This document shows, piece after piece, positions 8,361 through 14,119 of a DNA stretch of 32,411 bases. Each line of letters starts with the position of its first letter. Within the stretch, counting starts at the first letter, position 1. Both the position numbers and the translations under genes were made by a program. Origin of the DNA: Succinatimonas hippei YIT 12066 (lineage in GTDB: Bacteria; Pseudomonadota; Gammaproteobacteria; Enterobacterales; Succinivibrionaceae); NCBI RefSeq assembly GCF_000188195.1, contig NZ_GL831060.1, positions 835 to 33,245 on the forward strand, in the 5' to 3' direction. The notes beneath the pieces are model-generated. The model had not been told where the DNA came from. It saw only the letters and a program-made list of their open reading frames with translations, and did no database searches.

Positions 8361-8625
8361 AAAAACACCTCTTTTTTTCTTCACTGTATTAAAACTTTTT
8401 ACATTGATTTTCAGTGATCAAGTTAAGTAAACATGAAATTATTTATCTCCATAATATCCTTTACATTACAAAATCAGACATACATCATCTTTAACTTGAT
8501 AAATCAGCCTATTTTTGACGTCAATGCGTCTACTCCCCATCCCTGACAATAAATACTGAAAAACCGATTTTTATTTATTAAAATGCTCATTTATAGAGCA
8601 GCATAAACTTTATTTTTAAATACTA
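8361..8625. other. AT-rich intergenic region upstream of the met leader
   Basis: No ORF of note. Two items stand out. Tandem 8-mers TGACGTCA and ATGCGTCT (8516-8531) each match the MetJ box AGACGTCT at 6 of 8 positions. A small hairpin TGCTC-N7-GAGCA lies at 8584-8600. The Nudix promoter should also lie here, but no convincing hexamers were seen. Confidence 0.4.
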
Positions 8626-8655
8626 TTGACTAGTCATCTTTATTTGCGATAGTTT
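8626..8655 (+). promoter_or_regulatory. Candidate promoter of the methionine operon
   Basis: A -35 of TTGACT (8626-8631) is followed either by GATAGT (8648-8653, 16-nt spacer) or TAGTTT (8650-8655, 18 nt). TGACTAGTCA at 8627-8636 is a perfect 10-bp palindrome over the -35, so repressor binding is possible. It would give a transcript starting just before the leader ORF's ribosome site. Confidence 0.5.
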
Positions 8656-8689
8656 AAAAACAAATAAATTTTTATTAAGGAAAAACACA

Positions 8690-8854
8690 ATGTTTTCATC
8701 ATATCAACATAGTGATTTAAATACGAAGCGACCGACGCTTTCGTTTTTAAATGACAATTTATTTTACTCTTCAAGTTTTTTTGATTCTTTCGCTACTGCC
8801 TCTTCCTGCTCCCTCTCTTCTTCCATGGCCATGTCCATGCGAATGTCTCACTAA
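8690..8854 (+). CDS. Candidate methionine leader peptide (54 codons)
   Basis: ATG 8690 follows a strong AAGGA Shine-Dalgarno sequence by 8 nt, and a promoter lies close upstream. The product starts MFSSYQHSDL, is extremely rich in Ser, and ends SSMAMSMRMSH: Met at codons 46, 48, 50 and 52 (8825-8845), directly before the stop TAA 8852-8854. It has no membrane, signal or domain features and does not look like a functional protein. Stacked Met codons next to a stop, ahead of a methionine transporter operon and a hairpin/U-tract region, are the layout of an amino-acid attenuator such as the trp or his leaders. The coding call is strong by its ribosome site and codon pattern; the regulatory role is inference. 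It is not in the MetJ or SAM-riboswitch scheme known for methionine genes. Confidence 0.68.
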   Translation: MFSSYQHSDLNTKRPTLSFLNDNLFYSSSFFDSFATASSCSLSSSMAMSMRMSH

Positions 8855-8947
8855 GACACCCTTTTTCTTATTTAAAGACATTTAATTCATCACGCCCGTA
8901 GTGTATTTGGATTTTTTACTTTAAATAAGTCTATTTTTATCTTTTTT
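8844..8947 (+). promoter_or_regulatory. Candidate attenuator between leader peptide and metQ
   Basis: TGTCT (8844-8848) pairs with AGACA (8854-8858) around the leader stop codon, followed by CCCTTTTTCTT. A second AGACA begins AGACATTTAA (8876-8885), which pairs with TTAAAT..GTCT (8921-8932, two-base bulge), followed by ATTTTTATCTTTTTT, a terminator-like U-tract. The repeated AAGACA lets TGTCT choose either partner, so alternative folds exist. The stems are AT-rich and the exact switching logic cannot be settled by eye. Confidence 0.45.
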
Positions 8948-9000
8948 AAAATTTAACTAATTGATTTTTATCAAAATTATTGTATACATAGGTGAATTTT

Positions 9001-9882
9001 ATGTTATTAAAATCTAAATTTTTATTACTTGCTGCAGCTGTTTTAAGCATAACTGCCTGTAATGATGACAATGCCAACAAGCAAACCGCAAAAACTGAAA
9101 CCGGACTAAAAGAGCTTAAAGTAGGCGTATGCCCTGGACCTTACGGCAAAATGCTTCAAGACACTATTACCGAGAGTTTAAAAGATAAAGGTTATGAACT
9201 TAAAATAATTGAATTTACCGATTACGTTCAGCCTGATCAGGCTTTGGACAGCGGGGAAATCGATGCCAATTTAATGCAGCATCAAGCCTACCTTGACGCT
9301 ATCGTTAAAAACCAAGGATTAAAGCTGACCTCAGTGACTGCCGTACCGACTTTAGGCATGGGCGTATTTTCAGACAAATTTTCCAAACTTGACGAAATCA
9401 CACCCGGATCTTCAGTTGCTATAGCAACAGATGCGGTTAACCTGGCCCGTTCATTGCGCTTACTGCAAGATATCGGTCTTATAACGCTTAAAGATAATCT
9501 TGCCGATGAAAACAAAATTAACGTATCAGACGTAAAAGATAACCCGTTGAATCTTGAGTTTGTCGTTATGGAAGCGGCTCAAATCTCCAGAAGTTTTGAC
9601 AGTATCGGTATCGGCCTTGTTCCTGGCAATTACGCTATAGCGGCAAATCTTGACTACACCAAAGCCTTAGGCGTTGAAAAAGTCGCTCCGTCAATCTTAA
9701 ATGTCGTAACAGTGCAAAACGATCATGTAAACGACATCGGAGCCCTGCTTAAAGATTTGGTGCGCTCAGACAATTTCGTTTCACGCATTAACAATGACTC
9801 ATATTACACAGGTTTTACACGTCCTGACTGGTGGCAAAACTTCAACAAAAATCCCACTGCTGCAGATAATGGAGATAAATAA
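9001..9882 (+). CDS. metQ: MetQ-type substrate-binding lipoprotein (NlpA family)
   Basis: Extracytoplasmic binding component of a MetNIQ importer, 293 residues. ATG 9001 has AGGTGA 5-6 nt upstream; an in-frame GTG at 8992 is less likely. The signal peptide ends in a lipobox ITAC with Cys20 as the lipid anchor. Family motifs follow: LKVGVCPGPYGKML, EFTDYVQPDQAL, GEIDANLMQHQAYLD, VPTLGMGVFSDKF and NLARSLRLLQDIGLI. NlpA-family proteins bind methionine and relatives, so the exact ligand is inferred. The stop overlaps the metN start (TAATG), and the gene sits behind a Met-rich leader ORF. With two downstream 2-hydroxy/2-keto acid enzymes, a methionine analogue or D-methionine could also be the ligand. 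Confidence 0.88.
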   Translation: MLLKSKFLLLAAAVLSITACNDDNANKQTAKTETGLKELKVGVCPGPYGKMLQDTITESLKDKGYELKIIEFTDYVQPDQALDSGEIDANLMQHQAYLDAIVKNQGLKLTSVTAVPTLGMGVFSDKFSKLDEITPGSSVAIATDAVNLARSLRLLQDIGLITLKDNLADENKINVSDVKDNPLNLEFVVMEAAQISRSFDSIGIGLVPGNYAIAANLDYTKALGVEKVAPSILNVVTVQNDHVNDIGALLKDLVRSDNFVSRINNDSYYTGFTRPDWWQNFNKNPTAADNGDK

Positions 9883-10892
9883 TGTCTGAACCAATTCTTC
9901 GCTTAGATAAAGTATCGGTTCAATTTAACGATACCTTTGCCGTAAAGGATGCGTCATTGACTATAAATGAAGGCGACTTTTTCGGCATTGTCGGACCCTC
10001 CGGGGCCGGTAAGAGCACTCTGGTGCGTACCGTAAATCTGCTGCAAAAACCGACTTTAGGAAAAGTATTTTTCGAAGGTGTCGAAATCACCGCCTTAAAC
10101 AAGAAAGACTTAAGACAAACCCGTCTTAAAATCGGCATGATTTTCCAGCACTTCAACTTAATTAAAAATTCATCAGTGCTGGATAACGTCTGTTTTGCTT
10201 TAAAAGCAGCAGGTGCACCTAAAGATGAAATTAAAAAGAAAGCTCTGTTTTGGCTTGACCGTGTAGGACTTAAAGATAAAGCTTCATTATTCCCCTCTGA
10301 TCTATCAGGCGGTCAAAAACAGCGCGTAGCTATTGCAAGGGCTCTTGCCAATGAGCCAAAAATCTTATTGTGCGACGAAGCCACATCAGCACTTGATCCT
10401 AATAACACCAAAGAAGTTGTAAATACCTTAAAGGAAATCAAATCGCACTATCCCATAACTGTACTTTTCATCACTCATCAGATGGAGGTCGCCAGAACAT
10501 TATTTAACAAAATTGCAGTCATGGATTCAGGAAAAATTATTGAGCAAGGTCTTTGCTACGATGTTTTTGCCAATCCACAGCACGAGATCACCAAAAGTCT
10601 TGTCTCAAGTTCATGGCATTTAGAACTGCCTCATGAAGTGTTCCTTCACGAAAAAGAGCTTTTTGTAATCACTTATTCAGGCAATAACGCTTATGAACCG
10701 TTAATTTCCAAAGTATCCCGCGACTTTGCAGTCCAGGTACCGATAGTCGGAGGCAAGATTGAATATATAAGCGGCAAGCCATTGGGCATCTTGGTTATCG
10801 GCATTCAAGGCAATGCAGAAAACCGTACTGCGGCAATCAACTTCATTAAAACCCAGGCAAGGCTTGATCGCCTTACTTACAAGGAGGATTAA
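9882..10892 (+). CDS. metN: Methionine ABC transporter ATP-binding protein
   Basis: ATPase of the MetNI importer, 336 residues, start ATG 9882 overlapping the metQ stop, with GGAGA upstream. Walker A GPSGAGKST is at 38-46, the ABC signature is LSGGQKQRVAIARAL, and Walker B is ILLCDEATSALDP, followed by the switch His in FITHQME. The C-terminal 80 residues (from about EVFLHEKELFVITYSG) form the NIL domain. In E. coli MetN this domain binds cytoplasmic methionine and shuts transport (transinhibition). Its presence argues strongly for a methionine-type system over other ABC importers. Confidence 0.95.
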   Translation: MSEPILRLDKVSVQFNDTFAVKDASLTINEGDFFGIVGPSGAGKSTLVRTVNLLQKPTLGKVFFEGVEITALNKKDLRQTRLKIGMIFQHFNLIKNSSVLDNVCFALKAAGAPKDEIKKKALFWLDRVGLKDKASLFPSDLSGGQKQRVAIARALANEPKILLCDEATSALDPNNTKEVVNTLKEIKSHYPITVLFITHQMEVARTLFNKIAVMDSGKIIEQGLCYDVFANPQHEITKSLVSSSWHLELPHEVFLHEKELFVITYSGNNAYEPLISKVSRDFAVQVPIVGGKIEYISGKPLGILVIGIQGNAENRTAAINFIKTQARLDRLTYKED

Positions 10893-10894
10893 TC

Positions 10895-11557
10895 ATGCTT
10901 GAAGCAACTTTAGATATTTTAGAAAGAGAGCTTGGAAAAGCCTTATGGGAAACCCTTGAAATGATGATTATTTCCGTCGTTATTTCAAGCATTGTCGGCG
11001 TTATTTTAGGTTTTACCCTTTTTACCTGCAAAAGCAAATACTTTACTCCTCGTCCGGTGCTTTATCAGGTATTAGGCGGTTTTATCAATATCGTACGTTC
11101 AATACCTTTTATTATTCTTATCGTATTTACGTTACCGCTTACTTTCTTTATTACCGGTACCAAAATAGGACCTATTGCCGCAGCCGTTCCGCTTAGCATC
11201 TGTGCAATAGCCTTTTTGGCAAGACTAGTAGAAAGCGCCCTTCTTGAAGTGGATGAAGGCGTACTTGAAGCAAGTATCGCACAAGGAGCTTCAACCTATT
11301 TAATAGTTAAAGACGTACTTTTGATTGAAGCGGCTCCTGGATTGATCCGTGCTCTTACTGTAACCGTTATTTCACTTATCGGCTTTTCCGCAATGGCCGG
11401 CATGGTCGGCGGAGGTGGCATCGGCAATCTTGCCATTCAATACGGCTACTACCGTTATGAAAGCGGGGTAATGCTCTTTACCATCATCCTTTTAGTTGCA
11501 ATCGTTCAGTTTTCACAATGGCTCGGAGATTTCATAGCCAAAAGACTAAGTCATTAA
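10895..11557 (+). CDS. metI: Methionine ABC transporter permease
   Basis: Inner-membrane permease of 220 residues (E. coli MetI 217) with five hydrophobic segments. The EAA-type coupling loop is VDEGVLEASIAQGASTYLIVKDVLLIEAAPGLI, abbreviated here by its ends E-A-S-x3-G-A-S. The hallmark FSAMAGMVGGGGIGNLAI follows. Start ATG 10895 lies 2 bp after the metN stop with AAGGAGG 6-8 nt upstream. Third gene of the operon; 23 bp separate it from the oxidase gene. Confidence 0.94.
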   Translation: MLEATLDILERELGKALWETLEMMIISVVISSIVGVILGFTLFTCKSKYFTPRPVLYQVLGGFINIVRSIPFIILIVFTLPLTFFITGTKIGPIAAAVPLSICAIAFLARLVESALLEVDEGVLEASIAQGASTYLIVKDVLLIEAAPGLIRALTVTVISLIGFSAMAGMVGGGGIGNLAIQYGYYRYESGVMLFTIILLVAIVQFSQWLGDFIAKRLSH

Positions 11558-11580
11558 AACGAATTTTTAAGGAGTCAATC

Positions 11581-12942
11581 ATGGAAAAATTTATAAAACT
11601 TATTAAGGACAAACTTGGAGATAAAGTAACACTTGTCTTTGATAAAAAATACTTATCCGATTATGTGGGCGCCATACAAGGTAAAGCCGATGTTTTAGTA
11701 AAAGCAGAAACTACCGATGACGTTGCCGCAGCTTTAAAACTAGCCTATGAAAACGACATAAACATCGTTATCCGCGGAGCCGGAACCAATCTTGTTGCTT
11801 CAACCGTTCCTGAAGGAGGATTGGTTCTTGATGTTTCAAACTTAAAAGAAATCGGACAAATTGATGAGTTTAATCAAAGTATTGAGGTAGGCTGCGGTGT
11901 CAAACTTTGCGATCTGCAAAACTTCGTTGAAAGCAAAGGCTGGTTTTATCCGCCTGATCCTGCTGAAAAAGAAGCAACCATCGGAGGCAATATTTCAACT
12001 AACGCAGGCGGAATGCGTGCCGTCAAATACGGAGTAACCCGTGATTATGTACGTGAACTTGAATTCGTAACTCCGCAGGGAAATGTATTAAAACTTGGTG
12101 CCGACACCATTAAAGACAGTTCCGGACTTAATCTTAAACATCTTGTAATCGGATCAGAAGGAACTTTAGGTGTCATAACCAAAGCAAGACTTAAGCTAAT
12201 TCCCAAACCTGCATATACGCAAAGTGCCCTTCTTGCCTTTACAAGCTTGCGTAAAGCTCTAGATGCTCTACCCACACTTTTTGCCATGAGCTTAAAACCT
12301 ACGGCAATTGAATTTGTTGAACGTAAAGTAATTGCGATTGGTGAAAACTATTTATCAAAAGAGTTCCCTTGTCCTGAGGCTGAAGCATATTTAATTGTCA
12401 CCTTTGACGGCTGTGAACAAGACGTTCTTGATGCATTTAATATTGCGAAGAATGAATTAAAAAACCTCTGTCTTGACTTCATTGCGTTAACCGATCCTAA
12501 GGTAAGCTCTAATGTTTGGGAAATCAGAGCCGCTCTTGCCAAAGCAGTACAGGCAAGCGGTATTTGGGAGCCTGTCGATACCGTAGTCCCCCTAAGCAAA
12601 GTAGCTGATTTTGTCGATTTCGTTAACAAACTGTCGCAAAAAGAAGGAGTACGGATCTTATCATTCGGTCATGCGGGAGACGGGAACGTACATCTGTGCA
12701 TTATTAAAGATGAAATTCCATTAGAAAAATGGCCTTTGGTTTTACAGCACCTTCTTGATGAAATTTACAACAATGTCTATGAGTTAGGGGGACTTACCGC
12801 CGCAGAACACGGCATAGGAAAATCAAAGCGCCGCTATTTCCTTAATCATACCGCTCCCGAAACGATTGCGCTTATGCGTGCGGTAAAAGCGGCATTTGAC
12901 CCTAAAGGACTTTTAAACCCGCATGACGGCTACGCTATTTAA
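11581..12942 (+). CDS. FAD-linked D-2-hydroxyacid dehydrogenase, GlcD family
   Basis: A 453-residue flavoprotein of the PCMH/VAO family. AAGGAG stands 6 nt before ATG 11581, so the longer frame from 11518 inside metI is rejected. The FAD domain shows NIVIRGAGTNLVAS (62-75), PPDPAEKEATIGGNIST (124-140) then NAGG, and GSEGTLGVITKA. The C-terminal oxidase domain has the metal/substrate motif GHAGDGNVHLCI and EHGIGKSKRR. Family members oxidise D-lactate, glycolate or D-2-hydroxyglutarate, handing electrons to quinone or ETF. Its place between metI and a methionine-type aminotransferase suggests a D-2-hydroxy acid related to methionine (2-hydroxy-4-methylthiobutanoate) as substrate. That is inference; D-lactate or another acid remains possible. 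Confidence 0.85.
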   Translation: MEKFIKLIKDKLGDKVTLVFDKKYLSDYVGAIQGKADVLVKAETTDDVAAALKLAYENDINIVIRGAGTNLVASTVPEGGLVLDVSNLKEIGQIDEFNQSIEVGCGVKLCDLQNFVESKGWFYPPDPAEKEATIGGNISTNAGGMRAVKYGVTRDYVRELEFVTPQGNVLKLGADTIKDSSGLNLKHLVIGSEGTLGVITKARLKLIPKPAYTQSALLAFTSLRKALDALPTLFAMSLKPTAIEFVERKVIAIGENYLSKEFPCPEAEAYLIVTFDGCEQDVLDAFNIAKNELKNLCLDFIALTDPKVSSNVWEIRAALAKAVQASGIWEPVDTVVPLSKVADFVDFVNKLSQKEGVRILSFGHAGDGNVHLCIIKDEIPLEKWPLVLQHLLDEIYNNVYELGGLTAAEHGIGKSKRRYFLNHTAPETIALMRAVKAAFDPKGLLNPHDGYAI

Positions 12943-12958
12943 TATTAAGGACAAAAAA

Positions 12959-14119
12959 ATGATTAGTTTAAGTAAAAAAAGTTCAGTTTTTGAAGATTCG
13001 GTAATAAGGCGCATGACTCGTATTTGTAATGAATACGGTGCTTTAAATCTTTCACAAGGATTCCCTGACTTTGATCCTCCGCATGAACTTCTTGCAAAAC
13101 TTGAAGAAACGGCTTTCAAAGGCCCGCATCAATACGCAATAACCTGGGGCGCAGATAATTTCAGAAAAGCGTTATCTAAAAAGGTCGAACATTTTTCAGG
13201 ATTAAGCTACGATCCGCAAAGCGAAATAACCGTTACCTGCGGCTCAACTGAAGCCATGTTAGCTTCAGTTCTTGCAACATTAAATGACGGAGATAAAGTT
13301 GCAATCTTTTCTCCTTTCTATGAGAACTACGGAGCCGATGCTATTTTATGCGGAGCAACTCCGATTTATATTCCGCTGCATGAGCCTTCTTTTAATTTTA
13401 ATGATGAAGAACTTGAACAAGCCTTTAAAGACGGAGCTAAGGCATTAATTTTATGCAATCCGTCTAATCCGTGCGGCAAAGTCTTTACAAAAGAAGAATT
13501 ACTTCGTATCAGTACAATTGTCAAAAAATATGATGCTTTTGTTATCACCGATGAAGTATATGAGCATATCGTTTATGCTCCTTATGAACACTGCTATCTT
13601 GCTTCTTTACCGGGAATGCGTGAAAGAACCGTTATCTGCAACTCACTATCTAAAACATATTCAATCACTGGATGGCGCTTAGGTTATGTTCTTGCTCCTG
13701 CAGAAGTTGCAGATAGAGTCAGAAAGGTTCATGACTTTTTAACCGTTGGTGCCGCTGCCCCTTTACAGGAAGCTGCAGTAACAGCTTTAAATTTTGGCGA
13801 TGAATATTATGCAGCTCTGCAAAAGCATTACACAGCGATGCGCGATAGATTTTTAAACGGCCTTAGCGATGCCGGACTTAAATTCTTTACACCGCAGGGC
13901 ACTTATTTTGTAATGGTCGACATCTCGGAATTCGGATATGAAAGCGACTATGACTTCTGCATAGATTTAGCCCAAAAGGTCAAGCTTGGCGCTGTCCCCG
14001 GGTCAAGCTTCTTTAAAGACGGGTGTTCCCGTTATATCCGTTTTCACTTTGCTAAAAAAGATGATGTTTTAAAAGAAGCCTGCGAAAAACTGAAACAAAT
14101 AAAAATTCTGAAAAAGTAA
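12959..14119 (+). CDS. PLP class I aminotransferase, methionine aminotransferase (YbdL/MtnE)-like
   Basis: 386 residues, fold-type I PLP enzyme. ATG 12959 has AAGGA 7 nt upstream, 16 bp after the dehydrogenase stop. Hallmarks: ALNLSQGFPDFDPP (28-41), YAITWGADNFRKAL, CNPSNPCGKVF with Asn170, ITDEVYEHI with Asp198 and Tyr201, and the PLP lysine Lys232 in NSLSKTYSITGWRLGY. The order of motifs and the QGFPDFD start closely follow E. coli YbdL, which transaminates methionine and 2-keto-4-methylthiobutanoate. In this operon it would convert the keto acid made by the upstream dehydrogenase into L-methionine, or run the reverse. Aromatic or branched keto-acid specificity cannot be excluded. Confidence 0.85.
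   Translation: MISLSKKSSVFEDSVIRRMTRICNEYGALNLSQGFPDFDPPHELLAKLEETAFKGPHQYAITWGADNFRKALSKKVEHFSGLSYDPQSEITVTCGSTEAMLASVLATLNDGDKVAIFSPFYENYGADAILCGATPIYIPLHEPSFNFNDEELEQAFKDGAKALILCNPSNPCGKVFTKEELLRISTIVKKYDAFVITDEVYEHIVYAPYEHCYLASLPGMRERTVICNSLSKTYSITGWRLGYVLAPAEVADRVRKVHDFLTVGAAAPLQEAAVTALNFGDEYYAALQKHYTAMRDRFLNGLSDAGLKFFTPQGTYFVMVDISEFGYESDYDFCIDLAQKVKLGAVPGSSFFKDGCSRYIRFHFAKKDDVLKEACEKLKQIKILKK

Follow-up and report, generated by a model that had tools for sequence, protein, structure and literature searches.

Short ORFs with methionine-rich tails before MetQ-family transporter genes in the Succinivibrionaceae, a possible family of methionine leader peptides

Introduction

The trp, his, leu, ilv, thr and phe operons of Proteobacteria are governed by classical attenuators, in which control codons in a leader are followed by a terminator with an alternative pairing partner. 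The TnaC and mgtL/corL leader peptides act with Rho, the position of the ribosome on the leader ORF deciding termination, and in TnaC the nascent peptide arrests the ribosome with tryptophan as ligand. To our knowledge, the amino acids usually named as being read by control-codon leader peptides do not include methionine, perhaps because every ORF needs it to start.

Passages of PMC1262725 and PMC2965389 mention classical amino-acid attenuators, and the nearest precedent for the leaders described here is also found in passages of the former. These describe Cys-codon leader peptides before cys operons in Mycobacterium and other Actinobacteria, which are short ORFs with control codons near the stop, upstream of a sulfur amino acid operon and with no conserved terminator, and for which Rho was proposed; in the same passages no conserved RNA structure was seen before methionine operons in Actinobacteria. 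MetJ, MetR, SahR and the SAM/SAH riboswitches of Proteobacteria, as treated in passages of PMC4239095, act on the same kind of target genes as those considered here, and the terms 'leader peptide' and 'attenuat' are absent from the main text of that paper. Our search of the open-access literature, with few subscription papers or preprints covered, found no methionine leader peptide.

The window analysed here is a stretch of 32,411 nucleotides of the Succinatimonas hippei YIT 12066 genome, in which a first-pass annotation had interpreted a short ORF as a methionine leader peptide ahead of a methionine transporter operon. Comparison over 56 genomes of the Succinivibrionaceae lends support to this interpretation at the level of sequence: Met-tailed short ORFs recur before transporter genes, suggesting that the ribosome is used as a methionine gauge in one gut and rumen family. 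If such a family of Met-codon leaders is real, the charging of elongator tRNA-Met would be readable separately, and the control of methionine uptake in gut and rumen bacteria without MetJ would be explained; the idea is open to simple reporter testing.

Results and Discussion

The leader ORF and its operon

The features of the locus are collected in Table 1. The ORF with its AAGGA ribosome site and the alternating Met codons at its end are as the first-pass annotation described them; the peptide reads MFSSYQHSDLNTKRPTLSFLNDNLFYSSSFFDSFATASSCSLSSSMAMSMRMSH up to the stop codon, which lies 146 nt from the metQ ATG. The plausible promoter that the annotation placed ahead of the ORF was not confirmed: a TTGACT-16-GATAGT pair exists, but five promoter-like sites lie around the leader where shuffles lead one to expect 3.8. 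No Rfam family, the SAM riboswitch and T-box included, has a match anywhere in the window at gathering scores. Inside the ORF there is a candidate terminator-like element, for which shuffles of the region 8400-9020 gave a mean of 0.0 such sites; a looser scan, run without shuffles, places terminator-like hairpins within the ORF in 11 of 28 leaders. The AU-rich stem downstream of the ORF falls in a 361-nt region with a folding z of -2.92, and the terminator scan gave it no more than -4.1 kcal/mol.

Table 1. Features of the leader and transporter region in the window
Feature	Position	Strand	Basis or remark
Candidate promoter TTGACT-16-GATAGT, TG before second hexamer	8626..8653	+	sites no commoner than in shuffles
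Shine-Dalgarno AAGGA of leader ORF	8677..8681	+	8 nt 5' of ATG
Leader peptide ORF of 54 codons and a stop	8690..8854	+	reading frame and comparison with relatives
Terminator-like hairpin and T tract inside leader ORF, candidate element	8723..8744	+	hairpin scan
Met codon cluster M-A-M-S-M-R-M, leader codons 46-52	8825..8845	+	Met at 46, 48, 50, 52
Small hairpin TGTCT/AGACA across leader stop codon	8844..8858	+	counterparts in several relatives; by itself on a par with shuffles, fraction 0.213
AU-rich stem of 11 bp (8867-8877 paired to 8919-8929), then U-rich tract; possible weak terminator	8867..8929	+	folding
metQ lipoprotein, NlpA/MetQ	9001..9882	+	PF03180, 194.5 bits; GTG 8992 alternative start
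metN ABC ATPase with NIL domain	9882..10892	+	domain match
metI permease	10895..11557	+	domain match
FAD-linked GlcD-like oxidase, probable operon member	11581..12942	+	same order in three relatives
Class I/II aminotransferase, probable operon member	12923..14119	+	same order in three relatives

The best named NCBIfam models for the three transporter genes are MetQ, MetN and MetI, all of them under the curated cut-offs. The arrangement in which metQNI is followed by a gene resembling FAD-linked 2-hydroxyacid oxidases and by an aminotransferase gene occupies 9001-14119 of the window and is found in all three relatives checked (L063, L064, L067). Judging from the family names, some of which rest on matches below cut-off, the oxidase and aminotransferase could convert an imported hydroxy analogue to methionine.

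Recurrence upstream of orthologous metQ genes

The sample of 56 genomes includes contigs named Succinivibrio, Anaerobiospirillum and Succinivibrionaceae, and 27 of the genomes have a MetQ counted as close (E of 9e-74 or lower). Upstream of the orthologous metQ, 17 of these 27 carry a short ORF ending in a Met-rich tail (three or more tail Met in all except L062 of G069, which has two), two are weak, having a leader-like ORF with one or two tail Met (L002 and L061), and at the remaining eight close metQ loci no such ORF was found (G001, G017, G023, G030, G060, G063, G068, G077). Between the leader and the next large ORF, metQ loci have a gap of 60 to 799 nt, the one exception being L084, with a count of 1 because an in-frame GTG was taken as the start. 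The Shine-Dalgarno (SD) rule used in our scans misses L006 and L085, and L184-L186 are counted without a check of start or SD.

The check proposed in the annotation was whether relatives conserve a short ORF with clustered ATG codons while the rest of its sequence drifts, and this is the pattern seen at the 17 of 27 orthologous metQ loci as well as at divergent MetQ and MetN genes. Identity to the window's peptide is 7-30% among the 18 other leaders aligned, with Met kept and the remainder drifting, and about eight unlike peptide groups can be told apart by eye among related leaders. Among the tails found upstream of metQ are AMSMRMSH, SCMRMPVMA, MRSCMRMPR, CLCMRMPL, CMCMCM and CMCMCMCM. The number of Cys-Met units varies in frame between close relatives, as the last two tails illustrate, and in a genome with two similar leaders (CMCLCMRMPL before metQ, CMRMCMCM before a porin gene) the Met/Cys density is kept and the order changed, both of which are as expected of control codons.

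Enrichment was calculated over 121 loci (392,915 bases) with pattern-fetched loci left out; the loci omitted are the Met-pattern loci L031-L060, L087-L094, L112-L188 and L251-L253, those from outside the family (L013, L022-L030, L065, L066) and the duplicates L064 and L067. These loci yield 28 distinct ORFs of 20-60 codons that are SD-led and have three or more ATG among their 12 final codons, where ten block shuffles yield 0-4; a MetQ-family gene comes next after 19 of them, the window's own included, and does not after the other nine. Among SD-led short ORFs at least three Met in the last 12 codons occur in 19 of 94 before MetQ-like genes versus 9 of 932 elsewhere (OR 26, p 1e-14, with kinship among the sequences making P values too small). 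Cys tails are found in 11 of 94 versus 14 of 932 (p 3e-6, likewise too small with related sequences), but 10 of these 11 ORFs also have at least three Met, and once all ORFs that reach three Met are set aside the counts are 1 of 75 versus 14 of 923 (p 0.69). We have therefore dropped Cys as an independent signal, as it goes along with Met and shows no enrichment of its own. Ser is about equally frequent before MetQ-like genes and elsewhere (15 of 94 versus 140 of 932), and Met and Cys are the only residues to reach p 0.1 in the leader tails. The Ser/Cys/Met bias that the annotation saw as a sulfur amino acid link thus stands for Met, holds more weakly for Cys and only alongside Met, and is not shared where Ser is concerned.

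Two forms of leader

The leaders come in two forms. In form B (L182, L184, L185, L186 and L188, a set picked without the terminator as a criterion) the Met/Cys cluster starts 13-20 codons before the stop, and in all five a T-tract hairpin (-14.7 to -22.8 kcal/mol) begins 24-34 nt past the stop and finishes ahead of the transporter gene; for each of them none of 40 shuffles was as good. All five also contain a GCTTCC-like stretch between the cluster and the terminator that is able to pair with the 5' arm of the latter, the partners being singly weak (63, 4, 33, 24 and 75 of 300 shuffles as good). These leaders look like classical attenuators in their anatomy, with methionine as the signal. The differences from the classical systems are the methionine signal itself, the importer targets, and the window's own member, which is without a terminator.

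That member belongs to form A, in which the Met cluster adjoins the stop and no conserved terminator comes after it. No terminator was found between the window's leader and metQ, the best hairpin there reaching -4.1 kcal/mol, with 3 of 20 shuffles as good. Hairpins of -8 kcal/mol or better with a T tract follow 5 of 27 leaders, a set that includes two of form B, against 2.4 expected; the five are these two form B leaders, L063, L183 (which has a poor tail) and L209 (where the hairpin overlaps the metQ start). Intrinsic termination was consequently rejected as a general mechanism and holds for form B. In the 70 nt after the stop C exceeds G in 22 of 28 leaders, with totals of 420 to 271 that are raw counts without an intergenic control, and the window's genome encodes Rho. 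The lack of a conserved terminator, the excess of C over G and the presence of Rho together make termination by Rho our best guess for form A. The actinobacterial cys leaders, as portrayed in passages of PMC1262725, resemble form A in the features listed above and differ from it in having Cys codons, in preceding biosynthetic genes and in belonging to another phylum.

There are also hints of a small hairpin at the stop codon. It scores at or below 0.05 against shuffles in 6 of 19 leaders, the window's not among them and L084 scanned on a shortened sequence, and across four ungapped leaders standard pairs fill 18 of 20 pair cells, the inner pair showing a compensatory change. L068 and L085 each break one pair, in paralog leaders the hairpin is mostly missing or ends before the stop, and the palindromic CATG in Met codons by itself favours such structures. 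The case for this hairpin is suggestive only; it is seen in some of the leaders and could act as a pause hairpin.

How the leaders might act

We consider it probable, with good confidence, that these are cis-acting leader peptides in two forms that gauge methionine supply through translation of their own Met codons. A shortage of charged elongator tRNA-Met would stall the ribosome in the Met cluster, and the stalled ribosome would relieve premature termination before the transporter genes; when methionine is plentiful it would reach the stop and transcription would end early. In form B the intrinsic terminator downstream of the leader would execute termination, and in form A a ribosome halted at the cluster would cover RNA otherwise used by Rho. 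As with TnaC and mgtL/corL, it would be the position of the ribosome on the leader ORF that decides termination, with other signals and other sequences; translation, stalling and the Rho dependence of form A are the parts of the leader model that we infer.

A different kind of stalling would occur if the leaders were sequence-specific arrest peptides, whose nascent C-terminus, MRMP[VGA][LM]A followed by the stop, halts the ribosome on binding a ligand, for instance free methionine or SAM. The MRMPxxA ending is indeed nearly fixed within one subgroup, and RMPVLA before the stop is kept in L061 despite a single tail Met. We nonetheless think this reading unlikely, since wholly different tails terminate leaders elsewhere (CMCMCM and MCTCHSCTLMCM), the cluster lies far from the stop in some members, and conservation of the P and A in MRMPxxA may be owed to a small hairpin that their codons form. 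The leader could also be a Met/Cys-rich peptide acting as a copper gauge, much as a copper-responsive uORF does, and the CMCMCM-type tails may resemble copper ligands; yet the genes downstream are MetQ-family transporters and some tails (those of the window, L009 and L075) have Met without Cys, and a metal gauge seems highly improbable.

It is also quite improbable that the ORF encodes a functional small protein or has no regulatory role. Non-synonymous changes in the leader bodies are as many as synonymous ones or more in four of the six pairs that are comparable, on few codons, which lends this reading some weight; drift of the body argues against a conserved small protein, and the positional and compositional enrichment of leader ORFs also speaks against this reading.

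Known regulators, methionine synthesis and other targets

Compared with the MetJ system the target genes are alike, but MetJ was found in none of the 56 Succinivibrionaceae genomes, with a positive E. coli control. No match to the MetE N-terminal or MetH activation domain turned up in the window's genome, and a full MetE or MetH is present in 1 of 18 leader genomes versus 17 of 38 others, only the MetE and MetH forms being counted; G007 carries two short MetE fragments that pass the cut-off and would make this 2 of 18, and the MetE matches in G059 and G062 are weak and below it. The leader organisms seem unable to make methionine, as far as these two enzyme forms go. Whether MetJ has been replaced in the Succinivibrionaceae by a dispersed set of Met leaders of two builds, gating several MetQ-type importers and the porin of one genome, with the ribosome reporting a shortage of methionine (and perhaps also of cysteine) in hosts apparently incapable of making it, is a proposal that we regard as evenly balanced.

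Leaders before genes other than the orthologous metQ were sought in 72 stretches, the majority lying upstream of divergent relatives of MetQ. Twelve carry a leader, 11 before divergent metQ or metN genes and one before a porin gene, and the other 60 have none by the same criteria. Five leaders were obtained without any Met pattern (L205, L207, L209, L215, L217), and six were first flagged by one, L182, L183 and L185 before MetQ and L184, L186 and L188 before MetN. Pattern ATGYGNATGYGNATG matches 59 places versus 17 for its reversed control, six of the 59 being short ORFs directly before a MetQ or MetN gene; three of these are L184-L186, which are absent from the last-12-codon scan because it covered only those codons. 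Pattern TSNATGCGNATGNNNNNNTRR matches 42 places, four of them metQ leaders, versus 26 for the reversed control, and pattern ATGNNNATGCGNATGYC was dropped, its matches being mostly coding or chance. In the 60 metE and metK loci scanned (some metE loci being second matches in one gene, and the metK loci representing 30 of 55 places) there was no leader, only four chance-like ORFs; nor was a leader found at 10 MetQ loci from other families, or anything in the viral collection searched.

The porin leader, L187 (G067:C4), lies 248 nt before a Porin_1 gene. It has a Met/Cys tail and closely resembles the metQ leader of that same genome. Genus g8 (G064-G067, G007, G075, G078) has 7 to 9 MetQ/NlpA relatives per genome.
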